Shown piece by piece: positions 12,126 to 26,067 of a stretch of DNA of 26,585 nucleotides. Positions within the stretch are counted from its first letter, which is position 1. Every line of letters starts with the position of its first letter. Position numbers and translations under genes: made by a program. The notes below the pieces were generated by a model. The model was given only the letters and a program-made list of their open reading frames with translations. It had not been told where the DNA came from and searched no databases. Source of the DNA: a virus; the IMG/VR virus record IMGVR_UViG_3300021090_000096, positions 1-26,585 of that record. The stretch is one strand, 5' to 3'.

Positions 12126-12196
12126 CCCCGCGGGTGTATGCGGGGGCGTTCGATGGATACTATACCCCGCGGGGCAGAAACGCGTCACCCGCGGGG
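12126..12196 (-). promoter_or_regulatory. Promoter with palindrome cluster for the scaffold/capsid unit
   Basis: On the minus strand a -35-like GTGACG (12183-12188) and a -10-like TATAGT (12159-12164) are 18 bases apart. The spacer ends in the perfect palindrome CCCCGCGGGG (12165-12174), which touches the -10. Near copies lie at 12188-12196 (upstream, overlapping the end of the previous gene) and at 12126-12134 (in the leader). The 19-base string CCCCGCGGGGTATAGTATC recurs exactly at 18568-18586. The leader would be about 110 bases before the scaffold GTG. The palindrome probably binds a phage or host regulator, which is inference. Confidence 0.65.
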
Positions 12197-13087
12197 ACTG
12201 GGGGTCCTCGGCTCCATGCCGGCGGTGCGCGGCGCGCCCAGGCTGGACGCCTCGGGCACGTTCGCCGGCGGCGCGCGGCCCAGGATCGGCAGCGCCGGCG
12301 CCGGCTCCTCGGGGATGATCAGCTGCTCGGGCACCGCGGGCAGGGACTCCACGTCCACTATGTAGCGGTGCCGGCAGTTCGGGTGAAACAGCCCCTCGGC
12401 CCGGGCGTCCTCCACGGTGGGCAGGCCCGGCGTGGCGCCGGTCAGGCTCAGGCGCTCACCCTCCCAGCGCGCGCAGACGTCGTGCGTGGTGCCGTTGGCC
12501 ACCACCACCACCACGTCCACGCCGTTCTGGAGATACCGCTGGCCGAACGCCGTGCGCCGGCTGTCCGCCACCGCCGTGCGCCCGAGCATGCGCGCATAGG
12601 CCTCGGGATCCCAGAACTGCCCCGACGGGGTGGCCACCTTCAGCGCGCCGCCCTGGATGCGGACCAGCGCGCCGTCCGTCTCCAGGGCCTTCACGATGGC
12701 GGCCGTGGCGGTCCGCGGGTCGCCCAGCGCCAGGCCCTTGGTCAGCGCCTCGCGCGTGGCACCGAGGCTATCCGCCACACGCTCCTGGAGATGGCGCACG
12801 GCAGCCCGGTCAAACCTGGTGAACGCGGTCTGGAGCACCGCGGCGCCTGCGGTCGCCAGGGACTCCGCCGCGAGCGCGCCCGCCGCGCGGTACTCCGCGG
12901 GCAGCGCGCTGCCGATGAACTCGGCCTCCGCGGACTGCACGTCCCGGAGCGCAGCCTGCGCCGCGCGCAGCTGCGCGGCGACGTGCGCCGGGTTGCGGCC
13001 GCCCACCTCGGCCACCCGCACCATGCCCTCCAGGTCCTTGATCAGGGCCCGGTAGGCGAGCACCAGCTGGGACTCGGGCCCGGCCAC
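12185..13087 (-). CDS. Minor capsid protein, Phage_min_cap2-like (300 aa)
   Basis: It directly follows the portal gene, where MuF or minor-capsid proteins are encoded; these enter the procapsid with the portal. The N-terminal two thirds are Ala-rich helices. The region at about residues 165-240 has the family signature: a GRTAVADSRRTAFGQRY helix, a VVVVVANGTTHDVCARWEGE segment and GLFHPNCRHRY. His202, Asp203, Cys205, His235, Cys238 and His240 form a Cys/His set that may bind metal. The Pro-rich last 50 residues lie over the regulatory region for the scaffold unit. The GTG start at 13087 is three bases after the portal stop, with only a weak SD, so re-initiation is likely. Confidence 0.8.
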   Translation of the reverse strand: MAGPESQLVLAYRALIKDLEGMVRVAEVGGRNPAHVAAQLRAAQAALRDVQSAEAEFIGSALPAEYRAAGALAAESLATAGAAVLQTAFTRFDRAAVRHLQERVADSLGATREALTKGLALGDPRTATAAIVKALETDGALVRIQGGALKVATPSGQFWDPEAYARMLGRTAVADSRRTAFGQRYLQNGVDVVVVVANGTTHDVCARWEGERLSLTGATPGLPTVEDARAEGLFHPNCRHRYIVDVESLPAVPEQLIIPEEPAPALPILGRAPPANVPEASSLGAPRTAGMEPRTPSPRG

Positions 13088-13090
13088 GTG

Positions 13091-14785
13091 TTACACCACC
13101 GCCGCGGTTCCACCGGCCGGCTCGCCCGGCGGGGCGCCACCCTCGGGCGGAGCGCCTTCCGGCGGAGCACCGGGTGCCGCGGGCGGTCCGCCCAGGTCAG
13201 GGGCGCCGCCGGCGCCGAACGGCGCGGGCGTGCGCGGGGCCGCCTGCACCTGCGCGGCGGCCTCGTCCACCTGGTCCTGGAGGATTTCCTGCACCTCGTC
13301 CTGGGCCTCCTCCTCGGTCAGGTCATCCAGGTCCGCCACCGCGCGCACGCGCGAGACCAGCCCGGCACCCTTCCGGGACACGTAATTCTGCACCTCCGCA
13401 TCCGAGTCTTCGATGATCGGATCCGGCCAGGTGATCACCACCGGCCCGCGCTTGTAGGTCTCGGCGCCGTCCGCCGTGAGCGCGGCCAGCTCCATCTTCT
13501 GCGCGATGCGGAACAGGTTGCGGATGCCGCGCGCGAACGCGGTGCGCCGATCGTTCACCTTGTTCACCGTGCGGTGCGCCTTGAACCGCAGCGCCCGCGC
13601 GGACTCCACCTGGGAACCATCCCGCTCCAGCCCAAAGCTGGCGGGGCTGGTCTCGGTGGTCATGAACAGGTACTCCTCCAGCTTCTCAATCTCGTGTTCG
13701 ATGGCCTGCACCTGAAAGTCCCAGGTGAGATATTCCGGCTTGATCGCCTTCTCCAGGATGCTGGGTTCAATTTCGATCACGTCGAAATCGGCGAGGTTCG
13801 AACGCGCATCCGGGTTCAGGATGCCCGGCCCCACGATCAGCTTCGGGCGAGCGTGCTTCTCCAGCACCTCGTCCTCCTGGGACAGCCGGTTCTCCAGCGC
13901 GAGCACGATGCGCTCCACGCGCTGGAATTCGCTGCGGCCCCAGAACTCCGCCGCCGGGACGTTGACGCCCACGTGAACGATGGGGATTTCATCAATGCCG
14001 GTCTCGCCGTCCTCCAGCTCGGGGAACATGGCGGACACGTTCAGCTCGGCCTTCGCCGCCGAACCGTCCCAGCTGAACAGCTTGTAGCTGACGGTGCCCG
14101 AGCCGCCGCGCTCCAGCGCCGGCTCGTTCCGCTCCAGGAGCACCACGTGGGACTCGCTGATGGAATGCTGGGTCCGGAACGCATCGTCCACCGGAAAGGT
14201 GAACGCGAGCGTGACGGCCTTCACGCGCCGGTGGTCCAGCGGGTCCACCTCGGGGAAGTAGTGGCAGGGATGCACCGCGCGAATGGTCGCGACGGGGCGC
14301 ACCACTTCCGGGTCCTCCTCGTCCTCCAGGTCCTCCACGTCCACGCGGAACACGGCGTCACCGCACGCGGTGCTGGACTCGGCGGCCTGCGCCATCATCT
14401 CGTGAAAATCGTTCGCCGTGAAGATGCGCGCCACGGCGTCCGTGTTGGCGGCGCCACGCTTGCCCGCCACCTTGAAGTCCAGCCCGAACACGTAGTGGCG
14501 CATCAGGCGCGCCAGCATGCCGAAGAAGTCCACCGGGATCCAGGAAGATTTCGAAGGGGGCGAGACGTCCGGGCCCAGCTCGGCGAACCGCTGGTAGTGG
14601 GTGTCCACGTCCATCAGGGACTCGTTCCGCATGTAGCCCTTGATCCGCGCGCGGTCATCCGCATCCCGGAAATAGGACGTCATGCCGCCGGCCGCGGCCG
14701 CGCGGTCCAGCTCCTTCTCCCCCTGGCCCGGCGTGCGCCCGGCCCACGCGGAAAGCGGGTCCTTGTATCCGTAGGTGGTGGCCAT
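13091..14785 (-). CDS. Portal protein (564 aa)
   Basis: The dodecameric portal forms the DNA channel at the capsid vertex. Evidence is the place directly after terL, the 564-residue size, and typical portal content: an N-terminal segment with WIPVDFFGMLARLMRHYVFG at about residues 83-102, a wing region with HPCHYFPEVDPLDHRRVKAV, and a stem/crown region with ENRLSQEDEVLEKHARPKL, then EIEKLEEYLFMTTETSPASFG. The ATG at 14785 overlaps the terL stop as TGATG and has GGAGGGG seven bases upstream. The last 60 residues are Pro/Gly/Ala-rich and probably disordered. An SPP1 gp6-like family is likely, though I cannot verify it. Confidence 0.88.
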   Translation of the reverse strand: MATTYGYKDPLSAWAGRTPGQGEKELDRAAAAGGMTSYFRDADDRARIKGYMRNESLMDVDTHYQRFAELGPDVSPPSKSSWIPVDFFGMLARLMRHYVFGLDFKVAGKRGAANTDAVARIFTANDFHEMMAQAAESSTACGDAVFRVDVEDLEDEEDPEVVRPVATIRAVHPCHYFPEVDPLDHRRVKAVTLAFTFPVDDAFRTQHSISESHVVLLERNEPALERGGSGTVSYKLFSWDGSAAKAELNVSAMFPELEDGETGIDEIPIVHVGVNVPAAEFWGRSEFQRVERIVLALENRLSQEDEVLEKHARPKLIVGPGILNPDARSNLADFDVIEIEPSILEKAIKPEYLTWDFQVQAIEHEIEKLEEYLFMTTETSPASFGLERDGSQVESARALRFKAHRTVNKVNDRRTAFARGIRNLFRIAQKMELAALTADGAETYKRGPVVITWPDPIIEDSDAEVQNYVSRKGAGLVSRVRAVADLDDLTEEEAQDEVQEILQDQVDEAAAQVQAAPRTPAPFGAGGAPDLGGPPAAPGAPPEGAPPEGGAPPGEPAGGTAAVV

Positions 14786-16332
14786 CAGAATCCCCTCCGG
14801 TTCGGGAGTGTGTAGGTGCGGGACGCGGGCCGCACCAGCAGCAGCAGCGCCCACACCATCGCGTCCACGGTATCGTCCATCCCCGGCACGTCACTGGAAT
14901 CCGGGAATGCCAGCATTTCTTCGATCAGCCGGCCCACGCCGTTGGCGGACGTCGGCTCCGGGAAGAACACGCGGCCCTGTTGGAACAGGGTGCGCACGTG
15001 ATCCGCGCGGCCCACCTTGTCCTTCCCCTTGAACTGTTGCGGCCGCAGCTCGCGCACGTGCATGCCCGGGACGCGGCGCAGCTCCTGACACAGCCACTCC
15101 TGGCCCTGCACCACTTCCACCCCGATCACGAACGGCTTGTAATCCCGGTTCATGTTCGTGGTCTGCTGGATGATCTCCAGCTGGGTCCAGGCGCCGCGCA
15201 GCACCTTGCGCACGTAGAAGTAGGGGGCGACGTAGGATAGCACCACAATGGCGGTGCGGTCGCGGCGCGGGCCCCCGCCGATAGCCGGGTCAATGGCCAG
15301 CATGGTGCGTGCCTTCGCGCGGTCCGGCGCCGGCAGCGAATCGAAGTCCTGGCGGCGCTCGCACCACTCATGCAGGAAGAACTCGCCCAGCATGGTGCTG
15401 GTCTCGTTCTGGTACTGGGTGGCGAATGCGATCGGCCCGATTTGCTCCTTGATCTCCAGCAGCTTTTCGACGGAGTAGACGGCGGGCCAGTAGGACACCA
15501 GCTTGTCCCCGTCCTCGGTCAGGGCCTGGGTGCGGCGCACCTTCTTGAACAGCCCTTTCAGCTGCCACTCCTTGATTTCGTGATACCAGTCATGGGGGTG
15601 ATAGCGCGTCCCCGCCACGATCATGCGCGCCCACGGCTCGCGCGTGGGGGACACGGTGAAATTAAAATAGTCCTTCATCCGGCTGCGCTGCAATTCGGTG
15701 CGCGCCGTCTCCTCGGTCACACAGTCATCCGGCGCCACCACGTCATAGTGGCCGCCGGTTGCTTTGCTGCCGATGCCCAGGGACGTGAACGTGTGATCAC
15801 GGGCGGAAATGCCGCCGGTCTGACGCAACGCCGTGTCACTGGCCACGTCCTTCCAGCGCGAGCCCTGGAGGTTGCCGAACAGCAGCGCCATCTTCGGCGA
15901 CGTCAGCGTGGCCTTGATTTGCCACTGGAGCGCCACCGCCTTGTTCGCCTCGTTCGAAATGATCGCGATGCGAACATTATGTGGGCCGATCACGTTCGGC
16001 GCACCCGGGAACAGGTACTCCACCCCGGCCTTGGTGTAGACGTCGGGATCCGCAATGGCCATCCAGGCGGGCAGGTACATGCACAGGGACGTGGATTTCC
16101 CCGAGCCGCGGGGCGCCAGCCACAGGAAGGAGTCCAGGGCCAGCGCGTCTTCCAGGGCGGCCGCGTGGAAGTCCTCCACGTTCGCGCCCATGTAGGCCAT
16201 CAGGTTCTTCGGGTGCTCCTGCACCCACTCCTTGATCAGCCACGGCTCGCGCGCGGCGATGCGGTCCAGCTCCGCGGCCAGCGCCTTCGGGTTGCGCCCC
16301 AGGTCCGTCAGGTCATCCGAGACGGCGGACAC
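14785..16332 (-). CDS. terL: Terminase large subunit (515 aa)
   Basis: The packaging motor with ATPase and nuclease halves. Walker A is LAPRGSGKST (residues 72-81), and Walker B is VVAPDD (198-203), with DD in place of the more usual DE. The coupling motif AGTR lies at 240-243. The nuclease half has AIDPAIGG (Asp348), a second strand RTAIVVLSYV, GVEVVQGQEW (Glu406) and MDDTVDAMVWAL (Asp486, Asp487, Asp490), the RNase H-like acidic set. The start is GTG at 16332 with GAGG six bases upstream, two bases after the preceding stop. Length is normal. No certain small subunit was found; the 113-aa gene upstream is the nearest candidate by place only. Confidence 0.96.
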   Translation of the reverse strand: MSAVSDDLTDLGRNPKALAAELDRIAAREPWLIKEWVQEHPKNLMAYMGANVEDFHAAALEDALALDSFLWLAPRGSGKSTSLCMYLPAWMAIADPDVYTKAGVEYLFPGAPNVIGPHNVRIAIISNEANKAVALQWQIKATLTSPKMALLFGNLQGSRWKDVASDTALRQTGGISARDHTFTSLGIGSKATGGHYDVVAPDDCVTEETARTELQRSRMKDYFNFTVSPTREPWARMIVAGTRYHPHDWYHEIKEWQLKGLFKKVRRTQALTEDGDKLVSYWPAVYSVEKLLEIKEQIGPIAFATQYQNETSTMLGEFFLHEWCERRQDFDSLPAPDRAKARTMLAIDPAIGGGPRRDRTAIVVLSYVAPYFYVRKVLRGAWTQLEIIQQTTNMNRDYKPFVIGVEVVQGQEWLCQELRRVPGMHVRELRPQQFKGKDKVGRADHVRTLFQQGRVFFPEPTSANGVGRLIEEMLAFPDSSDVPGMDDTVDAMVWALLLLVRPASRTYTLPNRRGF

Positions 16333-16333
16333 G

Positions 16334-16759
16334 TCAGGCCTCGTCCGGCGGGGACTCCGGGGCCATCAGCCACGGGAGCACGGGAAGGTTGTGGCGGCAC
16401 ACCGCGCCGCGCGCGGGGCCGCAGCTGTTCCACGCCTCCACCCCGCCGTAGCGGTACACCGCGAATTCATAGACGAACCGCAGCCAGCGCCAGCGCCACG
16501 GCAGCGACGCGCGAATGTTCGCGGCCAGCTCCTCGTCCGCGAAGTGGCGCCCGTCCTGGGTCATCGCCATCGGCGGGTGCGCGCGCGAACAATAGCGCCA
16601 GTCATGGATGCGGCAGGCCCAGCGGAAATTGAAACGGAACCAGCGGTCCGGTGAATTGGAGCACCCATCATCCTGGAACTCGGCGGGGATTCGTGCGAGC
16701 ACGCGCTGCGCCTGGTCCGGGATGGGCAGCTGGGACGCGCGCTGGGGCTGCGCGGTCAC
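16334..16759 (-). CDS. Phospholipase A2-like small protein (141 aa)
   Basis: The core motif is CRIHDWRYC (Cys49, His52, Asp53, Tyr56, Cys57), preceded by DDGCS (30-34) and followed by FADEELAANI (Asp75). This matches the PLA2 pattern: a catalytic His-Asp pair in a C-x-x-HD-x-x-Y helix, a Ca2+-loop-like DGC segment and a second conserved Asp in the next helix. The rest is Trp/Arg/Tyr-rich helix (WRWRWLRFVYEFAVYRYGG). No signal peptide is present. The start is GTG at 16759, overlapping the upstream stop as GTGA; the longer frame above it reads the other gene out of frame. It is in the packaging operon directly before terL. Whether it acts on lipid is untested; family members can have lost Ca2+-loop residues. 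Confidence 0.68.
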   Translation of the reverse strand: MTAQPQRASQLPIPDQAQRVLARIPAEFQDDGCSNSPDRWFRFNFRWACRIHDWRYCSRAHPPMAMTQDGRHFADEELAANIRASLPWRWRWLRFVYEFAVYRYGGVEAWNSCGPARGAVCRHNLPVLPWLMAPESPPDEA

Positions 16760-17097
16760 GGTTCGACCTTGGAACCCCCGAAGACGCTGCCGGCGTCCAC
16801 GGTGCGCTCCTGAACCACCTGGCCCTCGCCGGTGGGAAGCGGGCCGAGCGCGACGCGCGCGGCCGCGCGATTCTCGGGCCACTGGCTGCGGGAATACTGG
16901 ATCCGCGCCGCGTTCTCCGGGCGCTCGGCCACGTCCTGCGGCATGCTGCGCGCCTCGTCCGCGGTCAGGTAGCTGGGGTCCCACTTCTTGCGCGCGGCCT
17001 CCTCGGCCTTGGCGCGCGCCAGCTGCTCGCCCCGCAGCGGATTTGTGACCGTGCGGGGATAGATGGTGCGTTCGCTGCGCGGGGGCGGACGGTTCAT
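16756..17097 (-). CDS. Unknown protein before the PLA2-like gene (113 aa)
   Basis: The ATG at 17097 has AGGAG five bases upstream, and the stop overlaps the following GTG as GTGA. The protein starts MNRPPPRSERTIYPR, is basic in its first half with a helical ARAKAEEAARKKW stretch at about residues 27-39, and has no hydrophobic segment. It opens the packaging operon after the terminator at 17119-17146, and its leader is that terminator's downstream flank, so either read-through or an unseen promoter must serve it. By place it might be a small terminase subunit, but I see no helix-turn-helix or other support. Confidence 0.7.
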   Translation of the reverse strand: MNRPPPRSERTIYPRTVTNPLRGEQLARAKAEEAARKKWDPSYLTADEARSMPQDVAERPENAARIQYSRSQWPENRAAARVALGPLPTGEGQVVQERTVDAGSVFGGSKVEP

Positions 17098-17118
17098 GCG
17101 TGCTCCTGAACGTGAGAA

Positions 17119-17146
17119 CCCGGGCGAGCCTTGCGGCCCGCCCGGG
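17119..17146 (-). terminator. Strong hairpin terminator after the 117-aa gene
   Basis: A 12-bp stem (arms 17119-17130 and 17135-17146) is closed by a GCAA tetraloop, a stable GNRA loop, in minus-strand RNA. One pair is G-U on the minus strand but would be an A-C mismatch on the plus strand, which supports function in minus-strand RNA. It is followed by TTCTCACGTT, a weak U tract. It lies 45-72 bases after the stop of the 117-aa gene. Confidence 0.75.
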
Positions 17147-17190
17147 GAATGATCACGACGCGATCCGGTGGGCCTGGGAGGCCCCGCGGA

Positions 17191-17544
17191 TTACGCGCCG
17201 AATGCCACCTCGCCCGAAACCGCGAGCGCGGCCTGCGCGACGGCCAGGCGCTTGGCATCGGACGTGCCGCCGTCCAGGTCGCCGATGCGCATGCACAGCT
17301 CGCGCTGGAGCGCGCGCACGCCCGAGATGGCGCCCGACGCGACGAACTGCTGGGCACCCGACAGCGTGCCGCTCACCTGCGCCAGCGCGTTGGCAGCGCG
17401 CTGGAAGAACGCCTGCAAGGTCTCGCTGGCGTGCGTGCCGTTGGCCAGGCCCACCGTGGTGCCGGTGACCGTGACCACCGCGGCCGTGTTCGGGCCCGCG
17501 GCCGTGGAATAATCGAAGAACGGAATGGCGCCGGAAATGCTCAT
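17191..17544 (-). CDS. Unknown Ala-rich protein in its own transcription unit (117 aa)
   Basis: The ATG at 17544 has GAGGAG six bases upstream. The product begins MSISGAIPFFDYSTAAGP, has a Thr/Val-rich strand section (residues 22-34) and then long Ala-rich helices with few charges (40-110). No signal peptide or membrane segment is convincing. It has its own promoter-like element (17582-17597) and a strong terminator (17119-17146), so it seems regulated as a single gene between accessory and packaging operons. Such isolation suggests a product needed at a special time or level, such as a decoration protein or a regulator of late genes. No family was recognised. Confidence 0.75.
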   Translation of the reverse strand: MSISGAIPFFDYSTAAGPNTAAVVTVTGTTVGLANGTHASETLQAFFQRAANALAQVSGTLSGAQQFVASGAISGVRALQRELCMRIGDLDGGTSDAKRLAVAQAALAVSGEVAFGA

Positions 17545-17581
17545 GGGTTTCTCCTCGTGAAGGGTTGAACCGGGGTCAGTT

Positions 17582-17597
17582 ACTGTACCCCGCGGAG
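17582..17597 (-). promoter_or_regulatory. Promoter element with palindrome variant
   Basis: Minus-strand CTCCGCGGGG (one mismatch to the CCCCGCGGGG palindrome) abuts a -10-like TACAGT at 17582-17587. No -35 consensus is visible. The leader to the ATG at 17544 would be about 30 bases and contains the SD. Same architecture as at 12159-12174 and 18571-18586. Confidence 0.55.
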
Positions 17598-17601
17598 TGA
17601 A

Positions 17602-17766
17602 TCAGGCCCGAATGTCGCCCAGCTCCAGGCGCCGCAGCCGGTCCTCATGATCTTCTGACAGCCGCTCCAGGCTTTTCAGCATGGCGTGAACTTGCCCGCC
17701 CCAGTAGCCGAACGCGCCGGCCATGGCGAACATGCCCACCACCTGCGCCAGGTCTGCCCAGTTCAT
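17602..17766 (-). CDS. Small single-TM protein (54 aa)
   Basis: A short gene whose ATG at 17766 overlaps the stop of the Gly/Ser/Ala-rich gene (ATGA), with GAGGAG eight bases upstream. The protein begins MNWADLAQVVGMFAM; residues about 5-28 form a likely transmembrane helix with small residues, and residues 29-52 a charged amphipathic helix (LKSLERLSEDHEDRLRRLE) that could form a coiled coil. A membrane segment plus a charged tail is seen in small phage membrane proteins, including some holin-like or accessory lysis proteins, but also in others. Its promoter-proximal partners are the 104-aa secreted protein and the 160-aa protein. Confidence 0.72.
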   Translation of the reverse strand: MNWADLAQVVGMFAMAGAFGYWGGQVHAMLKSLERLSEDHEDRLRRLELGDIRA

Positions 17767-18245: not shown

Positions 18246-18246
18246 G

Positions 18247-18561
18247 CTAGGCTCCTTCGCCTTCCATGTGCTCCAGAAAGGAGCACTCTAGGGGGTTGTA
18301 GGTCGGCAGCCCGAACCGGCTGCCCTGAATCACCACCACGTCAATCTCGCCCGCGTGGCACATGGCCATGCACGCCTCCAGCGCCGGCGGCCCATCGGCC
18401 AGGCACCAGCGCACCGTCCCCCGCCCGGCCACGTGCTGGTGGCCAGTTCGGGGAGGCTCCACCGCCGGGGCGTCGGGCACCGGGGTGGCGGATGCGGCGG
18501 AGACTGCGGCCGCCACGGCCAGGACGGCCATGGCGGGCCGCAGCCCGATGCGGGGTTTCAT
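18247..18561 (-). CDS. Secreted or periplasmic Cys-containing protein (104 aa)
   Basis: The N-terminus is a signal peptide: basic MKPR, a hydrophobic core at about residues 11-23 and a SAASA-type cleavage region near residue 25. The mature part has four Cys (53, 64, 68, 93), enough for two disulphides, and a GxSRFGLPTYNPLEC segment. The start ATG at 18561 lies only nine bases after the -10 TATAGT, so the mRNA would be almost leaderless and lacks an SD; in this operon only the first gene does so. No family was recognised. Export suggests action at the host envelope, for example superinfection exclusion or lysis support, which is speculation. Confidence 0.75.
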   Translation of the reverse strand: MKPRIGLRPAMAVLAVAAAVSAASATPVPDAPAVEPPRTGHQHVAGRGTVRWCLADGPPALEACMAMCHAGEIDVVVIQGSRFGLPTYNPLECSFLEHMEGEGA

Positions 18562-18567
18562 TCAGCT

Positions 18568-18586
18568 GATACTATACCCCGCGGGG
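18568..18586 (-). promoter_or_regulatory. Palindrome plus -10 element before the secreted 104-aa gene
   Basis: The minus strand carries CCCCGCGGGGTATAGTATC, identical over 19 bases to the scaffold promoter element. The palindrome is at 18577-18586 and the TATAGT at 18571-18576. The start codon follows the -10 after nine bases, so transcription would begin two or three bases before the ATG. No good -35 is present, which hints at dependence on an activator or on the palindrome-binding factor. Confidence 0.65.
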
Positions 18587-18602
18587 ACGGGGCGGGCGCA
18601 GG

Positions 18603-19103: not shown

Positions 19104-19303
19104 AGCGGGAACTCCACGTGGACGCCCAGGGGCGCGCCCGGTTCGGCCGGCTCCAGCAGCTTCACCACCAGCCCGTGTGACACGGCCTTGCGCACCAGGC
19201 GGTCCAGCTCCACCACCGCCTGGCGGATGGCTTCGCGCCGGACGTCCACCGCCTCGGGGTGGAGCCGGCGCCGCGTGCTGTGTCCCAGCTTGCTGGCGGG
19301 CAT
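19100..19303 (-). CDS. Small basic helical protein (67 aa)
   Basis: The ATG overlaps the stop of the 555-aa gene (TGATG), and the stop overlaps the next ATG (ATGA), so it is embedded in a coupled operon. The protein begins MPASKLGHSTRRRLHPE; residues 18-45 form a charged helix (REAIRQAVVELDRLVRKAV), followed by a short beta-like tail (LVVKLLEP, GVHVEFPL). There is no membrane segment. No family was recognised. Confidence 0.68.
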   Translation of the reverse strand: MPASKLGHSTRRRLHPEAVDVRREAIRQAVVELDRLVRKAVSHGLVVKLLEPAEPGAPLGVHVEFPL

Positions 19304-20970
19304 CAGCGCCCCGCCACGTCGCGCAGCTCGTCCACCAGGTCGATGATGGCATCGGCCACCGGCGCGTGCGCGGGGTAGAACGTGTCCACCATGCTGTCCA
19401 GGTCATTCGCGATCCGGTGCAGCGTGCCCCGATTGTCGGGCTGGTTCTCCAGCTCGCGCACGATCTTCTCCAGTGCCTGGCACCCGGGCCCGCTCAGGAA
19501 CCGCAGCGCGTTCCCGAGGTTTTCCGCGAGCCGGCGCGCGCCGAGCGGTACGGCGCCGGGGCTGGTCTGCGCCTTGATGGCCTCCACGTTCCCCGCGATG
19601 CTGTCCAGCTTCACCGCCAGGTCCTGGGGCGTAGGGCGCACGGATTCGACGGACAGCAGCGGGAACCTGTCCAGGGCCATGTCGCGCAGCGCGCGCTCCA
19701 CCCGCGCCTCCTTGCCCGCGTCCGTGTAGAGCCCGGCGCCCATGATGCTGCCCACCGGCTTCAGGTGGCGCAGCCGGGCCGTCCGCTCCAGCTCGTTCTC
19801 CGCGATCGTATGCGCGACGCGCGCCTGGTCCCGCTCGCGGCGCAGCTCGTCCCGCTCCGTCATGGCCTGGCTGCGGCCCTCGGCCATCTCGCGCAGCTCC
19901 TTGCGGTAGTGGTCCCGGGCCGCCACGGCGTGGTCCCGCGCCTGCTCCAGCTCCTTGATCCGGGAGCTTTCCCCGGCCTGGTAGTCCCGGATGGACTCGG
20001 CCTGGGTCTTCAGCTGCCCGGCCATGCGATGGATTTCCACCGCCGCGAGCATGCCCCAGCCGCCATCCCTGAAACCAGCGCGCTGGTTCAGGAACTGGGG
20101 CCGCACCTTGGACAGCGCCGCCAGCACCGCCTGCCACCAGACGGCGCAGGTGATCGCCGCGTCCGCGTGTTCCGGCTTGCTGTAGTAGGCCCGGGGATTC
20201 GTGCGTGCTTCTTCGGCGCCCATCATGGTGTGATCCTTTGCGGTGTAGGGTTTGAGGTTGCAGCCGTATCGCTCGGCAAACGTCGCGGCCTTCCACGCGT
20301 CGCGCCGTCCGGCATCGTCCATGATCTTCTTGGCGTGCAGGATCTTCTCCACGGTCAGCACGCCCGCGCTGCTCCCGCGCATGACCACGCCGCAGCTGTG
20401 ATCCCCATTCGGGGATGCGGGATCCACCGCCATCACGCGGCGCTCCACCTCGGCCAGGTCCGTGGTCACCTGGAACGTCCACTCCATCGTCGCCGGCGCC
20501 GGCGCCGGCGGCCCGTGGTGCTTCCGGTGCTCGGCCAGGATCGGCTTGAAGAACTCGGGCCCGTGCCCCGCGAGGCTGGCGCCGCGCTCGGCCTGCCGGT
20601 AGAAGTCTTCGCCCAGGCCCTTGCTGTGGCCGCTGGCCACCGTCACGGTGCAGCCCGGGACGCCTTGCGGGCAGGGCCACGGCTCGCGGCCCAGCTCCAC
20701 GGATCGGCGCCCCGCAGCCTCCAGCGCGCTCTCCCCCGGCAGCTGGTTCAGGGGGATGCCGGCGGCCAGGAAATCCGCGTAGGCCTTGCATTGGTACTCG
20801 CGCAGCAGCTTCAGGAACTCGGGCGGAGGGTTGCCATGCCCGCGGCGCACGGTGCAGTCCGCCGGGATGAACGATGCGAGCCGGCGCAGCTCCTGATGGA
20901 ACTCACGCCCGCGCGTGAACGCCGCGCGAATGAACGGCCAGGCGAGCCGCAGCTGTGTCCACCACGTCAT
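19303..20970 (-). CDS. Unknown 555-aa protein with coiled coil and possible RNase H-like core
   Basis: The ATG at 20970 overlaps the stop of the two-TM gene (ATGA); a longer frame to 21075 reads out-of-frame codons of that gene. An N-terminal amphipathic Trp/Arg segment (1-30) could lie on a membrane. A Cys-bearing middle (PCPQGVPGC, 99-107) is followed by a strand-rich region MAVDPASPNGDHSCGVVMRG (180-199) and GVLTVEKIL, and then PEHADAAITCAVWW (266-279). This spacing of Asp183 and Asp270 is loosely like RNase H/RuvC-fold nucleases, but no middle acidic residue is certain. Residues about 318-400 are a long coiled coil, and the C-terminus is helical. No function is assigned; it is the largest accessory gene in the window. 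Confidence 0.75.
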   Translation of the reverse strand: MTWWTQLRLAWPFIRAAFTRGREFHQELRRLASFIPADCTVRRGHGNPPPEFLKLLREYQCKAYADFLAAGIPLNQLPGESALEAAGRRSVELGREPWPCPQGVPGCTVTVASGHSKGLGEDFYRQAERGASLAGHGPEFFKPILAEHRKHHGPPAPAPATMEWTFQVTTDLAEVERRVMAVDPASPNGDHSCGVVMRGSSAGVLTVEKILHAKKIMDDAGRRDAWKAATFAERYGCNLKPYTAKDHTMMGAEEARTNPRAYYSKPEHADAAITCAVWWQAVLAALSKVRPQFLNQRAGFRDGGWGMLAAVEIHRMAGQLKTQAESIRDYQAGESSRIKELEQARDHAVAARDHYRKELREMAEGRSQAMTERDELRRERDQARVAHTIAENELERTARLRHLKPVGSIMGAGLYTDAGKEARVERALRDMALDRFPLLSVESVRPTPQDLAVKLDSIAGNVEAIKAQTSPGAVPLGARRLAENLGNALRFLSGPGCQALEKIVRELENQPDNRGTLHRIANDLDSMVDTFYPAHAPVADAIIDLVDELRDVAGR

Positions 20971-21218
20971 TTCAGGAGCACCGCGCGGCGGATCAGCCGG
21001 CCCAGGCGGAACGCGGACCAGCCGATACACAGCACCACGCCATAGACCAGCGCGAGCGGCACCAGCACCGGCCACAGCAGGCTGAACCCGCCCAGGAACC
21101 CCACGTCCTTTTCATCCGGGTCCGCGTCCACGTCGTCCAGGGCCGCGGCGAAAGCCGCCGTCAGGATTGCCCCAAGGAGGTAGACCAGGAGGTAGGCCAG
21201 CACGGTGGGCCAGGTCAT
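20967..21218 (-). CDS. Two-TM small membrane protein, holin-like shape (83 aa)
   Basis: The ATG at 21218 overlaps the upstream stop (TGATG), with GAGGAG five bases before it. The product begins MTWPTVLAYLLVYLLGAILT. TM1 covers about residues 4-26, an acidic loop follows (DDVDADPDEKD), TM2 covers about 44-66, and the tail is basic (FRLGRLIRR). Two membrane helices in about 80 residues with a basic C-terminus fit class II holins, but no endolysin is nearby, so this is only one option. Other small phage membrane proteins look alike. Confidence 0.72.
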   Translation of the reverse strand: MTWPTVLAYLLVYLLGAILTAAFAAALDDVDADPDEKDVGFLGGFSLLWPVLVPLALVYGVVLCIGWSAFRLGRLIRRAVLLK

Positions 21219-21532
21219 CAGAACTCCTCGGGCCAGCACGCAGCCATGCCAGCGCGCGGCATCTTCGGCATGGTGAAGAACTCCAGGTGTTTCCCCGGCG
21301 CATCCGCGAAGGAGTGGGGGCACACCGCCGCGAACACCTTGCGCTCCTCATACACCACGGGGTGACGCTTCAGGAACCATGCCGGCGCCCAGCGCGCTTT
21401 GACGGCCTCGCGCCAGTCCGCCGGATAGCGCACCGTTTGCTCGCCCAGGGTGAGCACGTAGCGGCGGAGCTTCACCGCCCAGGCGCGCGCCAGGTGATCA
21501 TAGTAGCCGTCCACCTCCGCGCCGCGCAGCAC
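21218..21532 (-). CDS. Unknown protein, probably the 3' part of a split gene (104 aa from GTG)
   Basis: The frame codes plausible protein from EVDGYYDHLARAWAVKLRRY to GMAACWPEEF; the part above the GTG at 21532 is an Arg/Ser/Trp-rich shadow. That GTG has no well-spaced SD (GAGGAG is 13 bases away). Directly at the junction with the upstream gene lies a 10-bp tandem duplication (21524-21543). Removing one copy fuses both frames into one protein of about 160 residues. It may therefore be the distal half of a frameshifted gene, or be translated after slippage. The protein is soluble and Trp/Arg/Tyr-rich; no family was recognised. Its stop is coupled to the two-TM gene. Confidence 0.6.
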   Translation of the reverse strand: MLRGAEVDGYYDHLARAWAVKLRRYVLTLGEQTVRYPADWREAVKARWAPAWFLKRHPVVYEERKVFAAVCPHSFADAPGKHLEFFTMPKMPRAGMAACWPEEF

Positions 21533-21671
21533 CGCGCAGCACCGGCTCCTCGCTGACCAGGGACGCGATGGCCACCTGGAGCTTCGACAGCACGGTGTGC
21601 TCCACGGCCACCCGTTGCGTGGTGCCCATCTGGTCACCCAGGTCCATCATCTCGCGGGGCATTCGTTTCAT
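21498..21671 (-). CDS. Unknown protein, probably the 5' part of a split gene (57 aa)
   Basis: The ATG at 21671 (MKRMPREMMDLGDQMGTTQR) lies eight bases after the -10 of a promoter-like TTGACA/TAGGAT, so the mRNA would be nearly leaderless. Residues 20-45 form a helix (VAVEHTVLSKLQVAIASLVSE). After EEPVLRG the frame degrades to a low-complexity ARRGGGRLL tail before TGA, exactly past the 10-bp duplication at 21524-21543. That abrupt change supports a frameshift in the gene. It could also be a genuine short protein, or a programmed slip could join the two frames. Confidence 0.6.
   Translation of the reverse strand: MKRMPREMMDLGDQMGTTQRVAVEHTVLSKLQVAIASLVSEEPVLRGAARRGGGRLL
21524..21543 (-). repeat. 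10-bp tandem duplication at a frame junction
   Basis: Two exact adjacent copies of GGTGCTGCGC (minus strand), at 21524-21533 and 21534-21543. Ten bases shift the frame by one, and deleting one copy fuses the 57-aa and 104-aa frames through the shared VLRGA codons. Confidence 0.9.
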
Positions 21672-21679
21672 GGGGGCGC

Positions 21680-21709
21680 ATCCTATCGCGGGCACCGGCT
21701 CGCTGTCAA
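21680..21709 (-). promoter_or_regulatory. Consensus-like promoter for the 57/104-aa genes
   Basis: Minus-strand TTGACA (21704-21709) is a perfect -35 hexamer, 18 bases from TAGGAT (21680-21685), a four-of-six -10. The start codon follows eight bases later, so the transcript would start one or two bases before the ATG. It lies downstream of the terminator at 21747-21780, so it begins a new unit. Unlike the other elements it lacks the CCCCGCGGGG palindrome. Confidence 0.6.
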
Positions 21710-21746
21710 GTAGGTGGCCGCGGGTTCGGGGTGGGTGACGGGGAAC

Positions 21747-21780
21747 CTGCGGCCAGGCCTGGACGGCGGCCTGGCCGCAG
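21747..21780 (-). terminator. Strong hairpin terminator after the 66-aa gene
   Basis: A perfect 13-bp stem (21747-21759 and 21768-21780) with an 8-base loop, 12 bases after the 66-aa stop codon. It is followed on the minus strand by GTTCCCCGTC, without a clear U run. It separates the leader-repeat genes from the next promoter. Confidence 0.75.
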
Positions 21781-21792
21781 AGCCCGCGGGGG

Positions 21793-21993
21793 TTACAGCT
21801 TGGCCAGGGCCCGCAGCTCAATGCGCTCGGCCTGTTCCCGGATCAGGCGCAGCGCGCGCTGGTTCGGGCCCTCGGTGGTCTCGGGCGCCGCGAGGCGGGC
21901 CATGCGGATGGCGCACTCCCAGGAGGCGCCGCGCTCGCGAGCCGCGCGGAACGTGGCCAGGCGCTTGGCGTAGACGGTGGTTTCGGTCTTCAT
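21793..21993 (-). CDS. Unknown helical protein (66 aa)
   Basis: The ATG at 21993 has AAGGAG six bases upstream; an ATG six codons earlier (22011) is possible and would add MAKEST. The product begins MKTETTVYAKRLATFRAARE and is an all-helical, basic protein ending EQAERIELRALAKL; short helices such as ASWECAIRMARLAA could form a helix-turn-helix-like unit, which is unproved. The leader carries the 18-base repeat and the GCGAAGGAG-type SD region that also precede the 92-aa gene, so both genes may be co-regulated. A terminator follows. Confidence 0.7.
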   Translation of the reverse strand: MKTETTVYAKRLATFRAARERGASWECAIRMARLAAPETTEGPNQRALRLIREQAERIELRALAKL

Positions 21994-22038
21994 CGTGGAC
22001 TCCTTCGCCATTGTTCTAGCTTCTTCCGCCAGTCCTCG

Positions 22039-22056
22039 CCAGAACTTTAGCCCTTT
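22039..22056 (-). repeat. 18-bp direct repeat, copy 1 (before the 66-aa gene)
   Basis: Minus-strand AAAGGGCTAAAGTTCTGG, 45 bases upstream of the ATG at 21993. Its first base overlaps the stop codon of the preceding gene. Exact copy at 22381-22398. It includes TAAAGT, a possible -10, but no -35 is shared by both copies. Confidence 0.85.
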
Positions 22057-22334
22057 CAGACCAGCCGGGGGTCCGTCATCCAGCCATGAACCACCGCGGG
22101 GCCCATGCCCTCCGCCTCCAGGAACTCCACCCGGCAGCGGATGCCGAACGTGCCCAGGCGCGACGTGCGGCGCAGCTTGCCCGTCAGCGTCACGCTGGCG
22201 ACGGGGTAGCGCGCGAGCCGCCCCACCATGACCAGGCCCAGGCCCAGGCCCAGGTCCGCGTCCTGCTCCAGCAGCCCGCCGATCTCCCAGCTGTCCGGGA
22301 TCACATAGCCCGTCGTCACCGTCTCCTTCGCCAT
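22056..22334 (-). CDS. Unknown protein (92 aa)
   Basis: The ATG at 22334 has AAGGAG six bases upstream (an ATG at 22355 is a weaker alternative). The product begins MAKETVTTGYVIPDSWEIGG, has a Leu/Gly run DLGLGLGLV at about residues 28-36 encoded by a GGCCTG-type short repeat, then a strand-rich remainder with charged segments (TGKLRRTSRLGTFGIRCRVEFLE). No signal peptide, membrane helix or catalytic motif is evident. It is the first gene after the large regulatory region, so it is likely to be controlled by it. Confidence 0.72.
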   Translation of the reverse strand: MAKETVTTGYVIPDSWEIGGLLEQDADLGLGLGLVMVGRLARYPVASVTLTGKLRRTSRLGTFGIRCRVEFLEAEGMGPAVVHGWMTDPRLV

Positions 22335-22380
22335 CGTGGTCTCCTTCGCGTCCATGCCCAGACGTATCGGGTGGGCCGTT

Positions 22381-22398
22381 CCAGAACTTTAGCCCTTT
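22381..22398 (-). repeat. 18-bp direct repeat, copy 2 (before the 92-aa gene)
   Basis: Exact copy of the minus-strand 18-mer at 22039-22056, 46 bases upstream of the ATG at 22334. Matching spacing to each start codon suggests a shared leader or promoter element rather than random repetition. Confidence 0.85.
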
Positions 22399-22432
22399 GC
22401 CGCACCTGGAAAGGGGCTGGATTCGACCGGAT

Positions 22433-22591
22433 CCCCGCGGGGAAGGGGACCGGGCCGGTGCTATTCCCCGCGGGGATGGGCGCTCCCGGTGTCCGATTTT
22501 TCTATGGGGTGGGGGTCCAGGGCGGGGCGGATCCGGGTTTAGGTGCGGGCGCCCTGCCGCTGGAGCGGCCTGGGCGTGAGTCCCCGCGGGG
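22433..22591. promoter_or_regulatory. Cluster of three CCCCGCGGGG palindromes
   Basis: Perfect copies at 22433-22442, 22466-22475 and 22582-22591. The second is followed on the minus strand by AATAGC, a poor match to the TATAGT seen elsewhere; near the third, GATAGT lies on the other side of the palindrome. The spacing suggests an operator array bound by the same factor as the promoter copies. Confidence 0.55.
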
Positions 22592-22610
22592 ATCTCTACT
22601 ATCGCGAAGT

Positions 22611-22640
22611 GTTCCGAATGGAACAGTTCCGAATGGAACA
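22611..22640. repeat. Tandem operator-like repeat GTTCCGAATGGAACA x2
   Basis: Two exact 15-base units. Each contains GTTCC and GGAAC arms with a 4-base centre, the shape of a dimeric helix-turn-helix regulator site. They sit 20 bases from the third CCCCGCGGGG palindrome, with GATAGT (minus strand) between them. Confidence 0.75.
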
Positions 22641-22931
22641 CGTGAGCGCGTTTCACTTAGCGAGCGCATCGAATGCGAGGGGGGATCCGGCGCCCGATTT
22701 AGGGTCTCCCCGGGGGTCGCGTGTGCCTTGAATCCTGCACGAATACTGCAAAAGCCTTTGGATTACAATGGCATTGCAACGCTGCACCCCTTGGCCTCGG
22801 GTTCCTAGCCTTAGGCCAAACGATACCACGCAAGGGGATAGCTATGACACCTGCGCATATGCCCTGAAGTAGGGTCAGAACCGTGCCCAGGTACAGCTCC
22901 ATGGTACGAAATCGTGCCTAGTAATTGGGCA

Positions 22932-23034
22932 GGTGCAGCCTAATATGGCAGCCCCCGGGGGAGGGGGTAGGTGTCGCCCGACAGGGGAAGCCAGGCCCAT
23001 GGTGCAGCCCTTGGATGCAGGGGTGCAGCCTAAT
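22932..23034. repeat. Direct repeats GGTGCAGCCTAAT
   Basis: Exact 13-base copies at 22932-22944 and 23022-23034, with a partial copy (GGTGCAGCC) at 23001-23009. They lie in the leader-distal region just after the end of the replication genes. Iteron or regulator-site function is possible. Confidence 0.7.
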
Positions 23035-23041
23035 GATGCAC

Positions 23042-23473
23042 CTAGCTGTAGACCATGTCCCAGTCCAGCAGCCCCTCCTTCAGCCCCCACATGACGCCCC
23101 TGCGAATGGTCCCGAACGTCAGGTCAAAGCTCGGGTCATGGTGGTCCTCGCGGTTCAGCTCCACGCTGCCCACCCTAGCGTCCAAGGCATGCGCCCACTC
23201 ATGCTCCAGGGTGTCCGCGGCGAGCGCCACGGTGGTGTTCCTGGCGGACAGCTGGATGCGGAACTGGCGCGCTTCATTGTGGCAAATGCCGAAGCACCCG
23301 CGGAGCCGCTGCTCCTCGGTCATGCGCAGCTCCTTGGCCTCCTCCTTGGTGAACGGCAGGCACTTCACCCAGCGCACGGTCACAGGCTTGCCCAGGGGGA
23401 ACTGTTCCCGCAGGAACAGCTCCAGCTTCTTGGTCCCCCGACGGATCCGCACCCAGTCCACGTCCACCTTCAC
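23042..23473 (-). CDS. HExxH metallopeptidase-like protein (143 aa)
   Basis: The motif LEHEWAHALD (His91, Glu92, His95) is the zinc-protease HExxH signature, and HHDPSF (His111/112) downstream resembles the third ligand and the H-x-x-x-F stretch of SprT/WLM-like peptidases. The N-terminal part has a CxxxC pair (Cys60, Cys64). The start is GTG at 23473, overlapping the nuclease stop (GTGA); the upward extension is a frame shadow. It is third in the replication operon, after polymerase and nuclease, so it could act on DNA-protein complexes or on a host protein, which is speculative. No signal peptide is present, so it acts in the cytoplasm. Confidence 0.72.
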   Translation of the reverse strand: MKVDVDWVRIRRGTKKLELFLREQFPLGKPVTVRWVKCLPFTKEEAKELRMTEEQRLRGCFGICHNEARQFRIQLSARNTTVALAADTLEHEWAHALDARVGSVELNREDHHDPSFDLTFGTIRRGVMWGLKEGLLDWDMVYS

Positions 23474-23826
23474 ACGTAGGGCCTCCGGTGTCGGATGAAA
23501 TGGGCCATGCGCAGCGGGCCCTTCATGGCGCGGCCCGCGGGCAGCTGCATCCAGCCACCCACGGACAGCAGCAGCACGCCCCCGGTGTCGGGAGCGTAGC
23601 GCGCGAGCATGCGCTGGAAAAACCGCTGGGATGCGCGCAGCTGGTTCGGGGTGTAGGCCCATTCGCCCGCCTCCAGGGCCAGCTTCGCCTCCCACAGCTC
23701 CGCCCCGCCGTGGAGCACCAGCCAGTCCGGGATGCCCGACGTGGTGGACGCGGGCAGCTTGCACACCCAGGCGCCCTCAGCCGTGCGCGTCTCCACCCAC
23801 CGATCGCCCAGGCTCCGTTCGCTCAT
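23470..23826 (-). CDS. PD-(D/E)xK nuclease, VRR-NUC-like (118 aa)
   Basis: The catalytic pattern is GIPDWLVL (Asp34) and LWEAKLAL (Glu46, Lys48), followed by TPNQLRASQRFF, a Q-containing helix. This order (G-x-PD, E-x-K, then Q helix) is characteristic of VRR-NUC and Holliday-resolvase-like small nucleases. The ATG overlaps the polymerase stop (ATGA), so it is co-translated with polA. It probably processes replication or recombination intermediates. Confidence 0.82.
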   Translation of the reverse strand: MSERSLGDRWVETRTAEGAWVCKLPASTTSGIPDWLVLHGGAELWEAKLALEAGEWAYTPNQLRASQRFFQRMLARYAPDTGGVLLLSVGGWMQLPAGRAMKGPLRMAHFIRHRRPYV

Positions 23827-26039
23827 GCGGGGCGCTCCGCGTCCGTGATCCCGTTGAACCCCCAGGACGTGGGCAGCTCGGATTTCTCACCCCAGGAAAC
23901 CTCGGCCCGCTTGGCGTCCACGATCATGGGCACGGAGCACGCGGCGCCGGCCTCCACCATGGTGCGCGCGATGGATCGCACCTGGTGCTGGTCGATGCTG
24001 TCCCGGGGAGCTTCGATGATCAGCTCGTCATGGACGGGCAGCACGATCCGGTAGGGCAGCTTCCGGTTCCGGATCAGCTGGTCCACGCCCAGGATGCTGC
24101 CCAGCAGGATCTCCCGGCATGAACGCTGCACCAGATAGTTCAGCCCATAGTAGCCCGTGTCCAGGTGAATGCGGCCGCCGTGGAGCGTGCGCAGGAATTC
24201 CTGGTGACTCCACGGCATCTCGGGCCCATGGTGGCGCAGGCGCTCGTCCACAAACACCTTCACCCGGCCCAGCTCGGGGTAGGCCACGTCCCAGAAAATC
24301 TTGAACAGGCGCGCGGCGAACTCCTCGGAAATGTCCAGGGTCTCAGACAGCTTTTTGTAGCCCGCCCCGTAGAGCAACGCGAAATTGCCGTTTTTGGCGG
24401 TGTCGCGCGTGACGTCCAGGAACCCCTGCGCGTGGCAGGCCTCCATCATGATGCGGTGCGGGTCGAACGCGCGATCCCCGACCAGGAACCCATCGAACAG
24501 GGCCAGCCGCTCCGGGCGCCGGCTCCAGTTCGACCGATAGCCCACGTGTATGCAGCCATCCCCGTGCGGCGCCTTGCCCTTGCAGTCCCCGCGGCGCTTG
24601 AGGGTACACCGCCAGGTGAAACGGTATTCGAACGCGTCGGGGATGGCGTTGCTGTAGTGGGCCGCCACGCGCAGCTCCTGCTGGCTGAAGTCAAACAGCA
24701 GGAAGTCACAGCCCGGTGTCGGCTTGAAATAGCGCCGCACCTCGCCCTTCTTCGGGAGGTTCTGGACGTTCGGGGCGCTGGAACTGTAGCGGGTGGTTTT
24801 CGCCTCCAGGGGTCGCAGAATTGTGTGGACGCGACCATCCGCGCCGAACTGGGCCAGCGGCTTGTAGAAACTGCCCAGCTCCTTGTCCGCGCGCCGGTAG
24901 TCCATGATCGAATCCAGGAGCCTGATGCCGTCCTCGGCCGCGAGTCCCCCGGCCAGTGTGGCGCCCGGGTCGCGGGTCAGCTTCATGCGCACCTGTTTCA
25001 GCGTGGCCTTTCGCGTGTCCCGGCTGTCCCGATACTGCGGCAGCCCCAGGCGGCCGTAGAGCGTGTCCGCCAGCTCCTTGCCATTGTTCAGGGGCAGCAC
25101 GATGCCGGCCAGCTTCTCCGCCTGGCGCCGATGATCAGCCGCGCGCGCCTCGGCCTCCAGGGCCGCAGCCTCGGCCCCGACGGTGTCCACGTGAATGCCC
25201 ACGCGCTCCATCTCCAGGGCCAGGCGCAGCTCCAGGTGGTGCTTCCGGATCAGCTCGCGCACGCGCTCGTCCTGATACGCGGGGCGCTTCAGCTCATGCT
25301 CCCGCAGCCCGAGCACCAGCCGCGTGTCCTGCGCACCGTAGGGTGCCAGGATGGTCCGCAGGGGCAGCATCGCGAAGTCATCGCATTGGAGCACCTCCCG
25401 GGCCAGGTCCACCAGGTCCTTCTCCGCCGCGGCGCGCCCCAGCCAGGTCTCGCCCAGCTGTTTCAGCCCGTGGCCCGTGTGGTAGTAGGCGTTGGCGGCC
25501 TCGTCATAGCGGTCCAGGGGGCGCGGGTCCGTGAACACGGACACCAGCTTGGTGTCGAACAGGCCCGCCCAGGGCGGTTCAACGTCTTCGGCCTGGAGCA
25601 TGGACGCGTCAAATCGCCACTCGTGAGCGGCCCAGGTCACGCCCGCGGCGGCCAGCGCCCGGGCCAGGAGCGCGAACGCCTGCGCGGGGTCCAGGTTCGG
25701 GTCCCATCCCGGCATCCAGCCGTCCGGGCCCACGCCCTCCTCCTCCTTCAGCCGGCGCACCCAGGCGCCGCCGTCCACCTTGGCCAGCAGGTCCTCGCGC
25801 CGGCGCCAGTCATAGGGGCGGTGCCGCACGGGGGCGTACAGGTCCAGGGGCCCGGTCTCGGGGTGATCGTAGGAGACGGAGAACCCGGCAATGCGCGTCT
25901 GGGTCCCCCACGGCGTGAACCGGCCATCCTGCACCAGGTTGGTCTCGGTGTCGAACGCGGCCAGGTCCAGGTCGCCGCGCACGATGGGGGCCAGCAGCTG
26001 CTCCAGCTGCTCCAGGGTCTTCACCAGATGGTAGGTCAT
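23823..26039 (-). CDS. polA: Family A DNA polymerase with 3'-5' exonuclease (738 aa)
   Basis: Replicative phage polymerase. The exonuclease half has FDTET (Asp30, Glu32), WAAHEWRFDAS (about 136-146) and YGAQDTRL (Asp238). The polymerase half has TRYSSSAPNVQNLP (416-429), motif A DFSQQELR (Asp450), motif B R545-x3-K549-x3-F553-x3-Y557-G, and motif C VHDE (Asp671, Glu672). No 5'-3' exonuclease domain is present, as in other phage PolA proteins. Between motifs A and B is a Cys/His-rich stretch: Cys478, Cys486, His492, Cys496 and His498. Phe553 aligns with E. coli Phe762. The ATG at 26039 was preferred over one five codons upstream because a promoter-like -10 (26050-26055) would lie inside that longer frame; no SD is visible. 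Confidence 0.95.
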   Translation of the reverse strand: MTYHLVKTLEQLEQLLAPIVRGDLDLAAFDTETNLVQDGRFTPWGTQTRIAGFSVSYDHPETGPLDLYAPVRHRPYDWRRREDLLAKVDGGAWVRRLKEEEGVGPDGWMPGWDPNLDPAQAFALLARALAAAGVTWAAHEWRFDASMLQAEDVEPPWAGLFDTKLVSVFTDPRPLDRYDEAANAYYHTGHGLKQLGETWLGRAAAEKDLVDLAREVLQCDDFAMLPLRTILAPYGAQDTRLVLGLREHELKRPAYQDERVRELIRKHHLELRLALEMERVGIHVDTVGAEAAALEAEARAADHRRQAEKLAGIVLPLNNGKELADTLYGRLGLPQYRDSRDTRKATLKQVRMKLTRDPGATLAGGLAAEDGIRLLDSIMDYRRADKELGSFYKPLAQFGADGRVHTILRPLEAKTTRYSSSAPNVQNLPKKGEVRRYFKPTPGCDFLLFDFSQQELRVAAHYSNAIPDAFEYRFTWRCTLKRRGDCKGKAPHGDGCIHVGYRSNWSRRPERLALFDGFLVGDRAFDPHRIMMEACHAQGFLDVTRDTAKNGNFALLYGAGYKKLSETLDISEEFAARLFKIFWDVAYPELGRVKVFVDERLRHHGPEMPWSHQEFLRTLHGGRIHLDTGYYGLNYLVQRSCREILLGSILGVDQLIRNRKLPYRIVLPVHDELIIEAPRDSIDQHQVRSIARTMVEAGAACSVPMIVDAKRAEVSWGEKSELPTSWGFNGITDAERPA

Positions 26040-26049
26040 GGTGCATCGT

Positions 26050-26067
26050 ACCATACCCTGCTGGGGG
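26050..26067 (-). promoter_or_regulatory. Promoter-like element before polA
   Basis: Minus-strand CCCCCAGCAGGG abuts TATGGT (26050-26055), an imperfect version of the palindrome plus TATAGT arrangement seen at 12159-12174 and 18571-18586. The ATG at 26039 follows ten bases after the -10. This would give a very short leader without an SD. No -35 was found. Confidence 0.45.

Follow-up and report, generated by a model that had tools for sequence, protein, structure and literature searches.

A G-tract fused to a −10 hexamer, with an operator-like palindrome, as a predicted promoter class in an uncultivated phage

The sites of MerR-type regulators are centred in promoter spacers of 19-20 bp. In the Cluster K mycobacteriophages, short conserved elements (SAS/ESAS) and inverted repeats are reportedly dispersed ahead of genes within one phage group. 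Promoters of the SigB type follow the consensus GTTTAA-N12-14-GGGTAT, in which the three G and the fifth-position A are nearly invariant, and their listed −35 regions include GTGAAA, GTGATG and GTGTAG (PMC8346170). The CsoR operator, ATATACCCCTNAGGGGTATAT, needs a TAC-X9-GTA inverted repeat around its G-tracts (PMC3902906). Here we describe an element that resembles each of these in part, the palindrome CCCCGCGGGG set directly against a −10 hexamer, in the virus record IMGVR_UViG_3300021090_000096. The window analysed is this whole record of 26,585 bases, described as a fragment. From its sequence we judge the element to represent a genuine class of promoters that carry an operator-like dyad; their conserved core, GGGTAYRGTA, joins a G-tract directly to the −10. 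The explanation that best accounts for the whole, and which we hold with moderate confidence, is that these are host sigma70-type promoters in which a mirrored C-arm completes a putative dimer site, with repression as the likelier outcome.

Enrichment and position of the element

The 16-mer spanning palindrome and hexamer, CCCCGCGGGGTATAGT, is found exactly at two places on the minus strand, ahead of the scaffold unit and of the gene for a probably secreted protein (Table 1), as a first-pass annotation of the record had reported. The copy before the 117-amino-acid (aa) gene, CTCCGCGGGGTACAGT, is also present, but has two mismatches to the 16-mer rather than the one then counted, one in the palindrome and one in the −10. 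The copy before the polymerase gene polA, CCCAGCAGGGTATGGT, was called weak and has three. At up to three mismatches the 16-mer gives 5 matches against 0.39 expected, a number reached in 0 of 100 shuffles, and the palindrome joined to a −10 arose in 0 of 600 simulated sequences. The shorter pattern GGTAYRGTA also has five matches in the record, all on the minus strand, comprising the four promoter sites and one site inside the start of a 134-aa gene. In four of these five the 10 bp ahead of the −10 form a dyad with at least four of five complementary pairs, compared with 4.7% of the GGG-ending 10-mers of the record. Several of the tests used in this study were designed post hoc, after inspection of the data.

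The palindrome alone is similarly over-represented, with five exact copies where 0.17-0.6 are expected (Markov orders 2-5; 26.6-kb record). All five lie outside genes, although non-genic DNA makes up 8.2% of the record (P about 4e-6 under uniform placement), and the palindrome is thus not equally common inside genes. When one mismatch is allowed the count rises to 15 against 8.8 expected, five of these being the exact copies, so that the one-mismatch versions show no clear enrichment. Each of the four promoter copies precedes a gene start, as had been claimed. They also share one direction, but this carries little weight, as the credible genes of the record are all on the minus strand.

The −10 takes the form TANNNT throughout (TATAGT twice, TACAGT and TATGGT in the record; TACAGT and TATGGT in the relatives L006 and L005). 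Hexamers resembling a −35 are GTGACG-N18 for the scaffold copy, GTGGCG-N18 for polA, GTGCAT-N16 in L006, GTGCAC-N17 in L005 and TTGACA-N17 in L011. In the record itself the −35 is weak or missing, and no other upstream element is common to all copies.

Conservation of the core in related phages

A DNA search of an annotated phage collection found no close relative of the record, and relatives were recovered through the capsid protein (L005, L006/L007, L008, G001, L010 and L011; capsid identity 58-82%). L008 and the 58-kb record G001 are the same phage type, and G001 looks complete, judging from its end repeats of ~176 bp. A capsid and terminase search of 84,980 bacterial and archaeal genomes, aimed at the host, returned no relatives.

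The gap upstream of the scaffold gene was compared across all relatives. At this spot the two closest carry GGGTACAGTA or GGGTATGGTA; read through the −10, the gaps are CCCCGCGGGG-TATAGTA in the record, CTCGCGGGGG-TACAGTA in L006 and CACCTTAGGG-TATGGTA in L005. The more distant L011 has a canonical TTGACA-N17-GATACT here, with CCTCCGCGG within the spacer. In L005 and in L006 (L006/L007) GGGTAYRGTA has a single match each, exactly ahead of the scaffold gene and nowhere else in those sequences, and the shorter GGTAYRGTA gives the same result; scans of G001, L008, L010 and L011 gave no match to either. Across the record and its relatives the G-tract is invariant in six of six copies, which read GGGTAT or GGGTAC. 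A recurrent promoter class is upheld by this orthologous core in L005 and L006/L007, but the term phage-wide, used in the first-pass annotation, is too broad for four sites among about 34 genes. Likewise, the palindrome defines the class only in part, since the relatives keep the G-tract and the −10 while the full dyad decays.

G001 appears to have a promoter word of its own. The 14-mer TCGTTAATGTAATG occurs exactly twice in its 58 kb, on the minus strand at 41563 (L026) and 34388 (L025), ahead of the scaffold gene and in the intergenic region at the early/late boundary, and is probably the promoter word of this phage. The sub-lineages seem to repeat their own words at scaffold and late-operon positions, which argues that the promoters are real and makes plain that the palindrome is not universal.

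The palindrome is also found without a promoter. Bare copies had been placed at 22433-22591, and three are indeed there (22433, 22466 and 22582), whereas the pair said to flank position 12165 is imperfect, one member being coding sequence at the 3' end of the minor-head gene and the other the 3' arm of a hairpin in the scaffold leader. G001 has three palindromes against 0.05-0.14 expected (55% GC). Two of them form a pair with a distance of 31 bp, and the intergenic region that holds it corresponds to the one with the record pair, where the distance is 33 bp; the spacing is about three helical turns, and GGCTGCACC words are common to both regions. The boundary region is covered in one relative only, G001. 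That two diverged phages each carry such a pair, free of any −10, in corresponding regions suggests that the palindrome is a separate, putative binding site. An RNA stem would be free to covary, so that the retention of one word in diverged genomes points instead to sequence-specific binding at the DNA level. Binding by a protein, as originally proposed, is plausible, with the bare pairs as its best evidence, though no candidate protein was found among those looked at.

Possible reader and regulator of the promoters

A Pfam scan of 30 open reading frames (ORFs) of G001 found no single-subunit RNA polymerase and no sigma factor, which is indirect evidence for the record, itself a fragment. Taken with the canonical promoter of L011, this makes a host sigma70-type polymerase the likely reader. 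We propose that host RNA polymerase carrying such a factor would recognise the −10 with its preceding G-tract as the essential part, a weak −35 (nTGnnn) helping in some copies. These promoters would drive polA, the scaffold/capsid unit and genes that lie upstream of the terminase, and the messages of the exported protein and of polA would be nearly leaderless. In this phage the C-tract mirrors the G-tract to give CCCCGCGGGG, to whose symmetry a small regulator, binding as a dimer, is the most likely counterpart. A dimer bound on the spacer against the −10, or perhaps at the start site in the case of the 22582 copy, would occlude the polymerase and might silence the genes during lysogeny or until they are needed. 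An activator or a repressor had been suggested; because the sites overlap the polymerase footprint, a repressor is the likelier of the two. If a regulator does bind, one mutation per promoter confined to the C-arm would separate regulation from polymerase recognition.

It is conceivable, though we put this forward only tentatively, that a small dimeric regulator of CCCCGCGGGG, encoded by the phage or the host, coordinates the early/late boundary. In related phages it would bind the phased pair (31-33 bp, three turns) of the boundary region, and the site would have been copied here into the spacers of late promoters and of polA. Were this true, spacer-filling C-run/G-run dyads would be a wider, undescribed route to placing phage sigma70 promoters under one switch. 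The elements give an uncultivated phage lineage a promoter vocabulary that is well defined and open to testing.

C-run/G-run inverted repeats against a −10 recur in unrelated high-GC phages. Among 2.9 million viral contigs the exact 16-mer has two matches, L012 and L013, and neither stretch has a protein match to the record at E 1e-4. A GGGTAYRGTA scan of the fetched loci led to an unrelated phage group (L062, L072, L077, L078 and others; terminase about 23% identical) with a dispersed cassette laid out as TTGAC/TTGCA-CCCC...GGGGG-TAYAGT-ACGkGTGT, two hairpins, CAGGAGA and ATG. The same genomes contain TTGCAC-CCCC...GGGGG-TATAAT promoters with 17-bp spacers. In these phages TTGCAC or TTGACC is combined with TAYAGT or TATAAT, and the entire spacer is a C-run/G-run inverted repeat. 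The canonical elements around a dyad spacer suggest that no activator is needed there, and the arm spacing, unlike that in the record, makes it unlikely that one protein binds both.

Cassettes lie at L078:4069-4129, L072:3312-3372, L077:6127-6188 and elsewhere. Their two hairpins covary (two-sided changes in 10 cells, compared with 2.7 in shuffles; 0 of 500), and a search by covariance model gives 4-7 copies in each record, not all of them with a promoter. The cassette RNA has no match in Rfam, and its model none in our record or G001. Palindrome pairs occur in 15 viral contigs, all of which but G001 look like unrelated arrays, and the pairs listed for them have no TATAGT junction. In one unrelated phage group CCCCGCGGGG forms 34-bp tandem arrays of five and six copies (L121:4432-4566 and L125:6450-6618).

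Several observations weigh against a dimer-regulated sigma70 class. Two of the four copies, at 18586 and 17597, have no recognisable −35. The dyad is poor in the nearest relatives (three of five pairs in L006, two of five in L005) where the G-tract is kept, so that the palindrome may be dispensable. The G001 word TCGTTAATGTAATG lacks the palindrome, and any shared regulator would therefore not act likewise on the late promoters of G001. Two small genes downstream of the palindromes match no family and so provide no DNA-binding candidate; the model of the 72-aa protein (predicted local distance difference test score 77) has no fold match at E 0.001, and that of the 99-aa protein is poor and unusable. 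Finally, sites made up of a C-run, short centre, G-run and −10 number 47, compared with 1 and 5 for two swapped controls, but they were counted in loci that had been collected through other searches; one phage group is dominant among them, and overlapping or repeated records are included.

The strongest competing explanation, which we consider possible but the less probable, dispenses with a dedicated dyad-binding protein. Host polymerase would prefer a G-tract at the −10, and the C-tract would either serve the structure of the spacer or have no significance. The invariant G-tract beside a mirror arm that decays in L005 and L006 fits this well. So do the cassette phages, where C-run and G-run fill a 16-17-bp spacer around a changing centre, with about 7-8 bp from arm to arm compared with 2 in the record, unlike one fixed operator. 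It accounts less easily for the dyads at four of the five core matches in the record against a 4.7% null, or for the bare palindrome pairs, lacking any −10, that two diverged phages have in corresponding regions.

An alternative host sigma factor of the SigB/SigF kind, with GGGTAY as its −10, is an unlikely reader. All six copies have GGGTAT or GGGTAC, as in the published consensus (PMC8346170), and four of the six have hexamers starting with GTG 13-15 nucleotides (nt) upstream (GTGACG, GTGGCG, GTGCAT and GTGCAC). However, GTTT stands at the needed spacing in none of them, and the hexamer invariably ends in T, followed by an equally invariant A; SigB needs neither, whereas sigma70 (TANNNT) needs the T. 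Moreover, TTGACA-N17-GATACT takes this place in L011, and the cassette phages have TTGCAC/TTGACC with TATAAT.

We also doubt that the dyad is the site of a MerR-type activator that offsets a weak −35. The weak or absent −35 in the record copies, the position of the dyad in the spacer and the lack of any other shared upstream element would suit such a protein. Against this, the midpoint of the dyad lies about 5 bp ahead of the −10 rather than in the middle of a 19-20-bp spacer, no MerR-like protein was found in the scanned ORFs of the record, and the spacer-dyad promoters of the cassette phages are canonical, normally spaced and in no need of an activator. Chance, whereby a GC-rich genome yields GC-rich palindromes next to coincidental −10s, is already contradicted: the unenriched one-mismatch versions and a second GC palindrome, CCGGCGCCGG, that likewise occurs five times would fit it, but exact palindromes number 5 against 0.2-0.6 and are all intergenic, none of 600 simulated sequences joined one to a −10, and the core recurs at the orthologous position in relatives.

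Neighbouring features and comparison with known systems

Table 1. Positions of the predicted promoters, palindromes and associated genes in the record
Feature	Position	Strand	Remarks
CCCCGCGGGG + TATAGT, predicted promoter of scaffold/capsid unit	12159..12174	-	Exact; orthologous promoter in L005, L006, L011
GTGACG, possible −35 of scaffold promoter	12183-12188	-	18-bp spacer
CCCCGCGGGG + TATAGT	18571..18586	-	Exact; ATG of 104-aa protein 9 nt on; predicted near-leaderless
CTCCGCGGGG + TACAGT, predicted promoter of 117-aa gene	17582..17597	-	
CCCAGCAGGG + TATGGT, predicted polA promoter	26050..26065	-	−10 to likely ATG 10 nt; predicted leaderless
Fifth site, GGGTATAGTA	6886..6895	-	Within start of 134-aa gene; two of five pairs by eye, no good dyad
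Bare palindrome, first of pair 33 bp apart	22433..22442	not assigned	
Bare palindrome, second of pair	22466..22475	not assigned	Followed by AATAGC, a poor −10
Bare palindrome	22582..22591	not assigned	6 bp downstream of GATAGT (22598-22603)
Intergenic region, 686 bp	22356..23041	not assigned	Contains palindromes, GTTCCATTCGGAAC direct repeats and GGCTGCACC repeats common to G001
Imperfect palindrome	12187..12196	-	Coding 3' end of minor-head gene (SPRG-stop)
GC hairpin CCCCGC-N8-GCGGGG	12126..12145	-	Near predicted 5' end of scaffold mRNA; 3' arm is imperfect palindrome 12126-12135
Scaffold gene	11266..12039	-	Likely GTG start near 12039; PHROG 172, E 0.0011; homologues in all close relatives
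Family A DNA polymerase (polA)	23823..26039	-	PF00476, E 3.5e-42; phrog_17, E 1.4e-80
117-aa gene	17191..17544	-	Conserved in G001, 42%
104-aa protein	18247..18561	-	Signal-peptide-like N-terminus, from sequence; without family match

The gene set of the record comprises a family A DNA polymerase, a SprT-like protein, terminase, portal, minor head protein, scaffold, major capsid protein and tail genes, and the 104-aa protein is probably exported. An ORF resembling phospholipase A2 (~16334-16760; PF09056, E 5.3e-6, falling slightly short of the curated cut-off) lies between a 113-aa gene and the terminase and has a weak match in G001. An Rfam search of the record gave no match.

A canonical TTGACA-N18-TAGGAT promoter is present at 21680-21709 with an ATG 8 nt on, and the gene that follows is probably leaderless. 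AAAGGGCTAAAGTTCTGG is repeated at 22381-22398 and 22039-22056 ahead of two small genes and has a TAAAGT −10-like core, possibly a second promoter class. The palindrome at 22582 would lie near a start site if GATAGT is a −10. Just upstream of both, TGTTCCATTCGGAAC occurs as two direct copies (22611-22640) with an inner GTTCC-N4-GGAAC inverted repeat, and appears operator-like.

Six scaffold leaders have a GC-rich hairpin that starts 16-22 nt past the beginning of the −10; in the five other than that of the record it has 4-5 bp each, at the same offset. Taken singly, these hairpins are not more stable than shuffles, and their shared position is only suggestive, as the offset was chosen after inspection. 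A protective 5' stem is therefore only suggestive.

In the boundary region of G001 there are tandem copies of a 15-bp unit, GCAGGCCCACCAGTA, as well as GCAACATGAGGCTGCA repeats that resemble iterons (L026:2225-2313 and 1620-1740), a candidate origin or control region. G001 also encodes a protein with a GGDEF (diguanylate cyclase) domain (L024:476-1045, minus strand; PF00990, E 5.1e-39), which is unusual in a phage.

Among known systems, sigma70 extended −10 promoters are alike in their TANNNT with T at position 6, a G directly upstream, an nTG-like −35 in some copies and suitable distances to start codon and leader. They differ in that here three to five G abut the −10 and are mirrored by a C-run, and the −35 is absent in some copies. 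SigB/SigF (group 3) promoters have in common with all six copies the GGGTAY, and the spacing of the GTG-starting hexamers; in none of the six is GTTT at the required spacing, and an extra T and A are invariant after GGGTAYRG. MerR-family promoters similarly place an inverted repeat between the −35 and the −10, but the short dyad here is flush with the −10, centred about 5 bp from it, and no member of the family matched among the scanned ORFs of the record. The C-run/G-run pseudopalindrome ending in GGGGTAT recalls CsoR operators; a CsoR operator was rejected, as the left flank is GTCCCC or TGCCCC and the required left TAC is absent, and the scanned ORFs of the record have no CsoR match. Cluster K SAS/ESAS, set beside these elements by description only, are a parallel.

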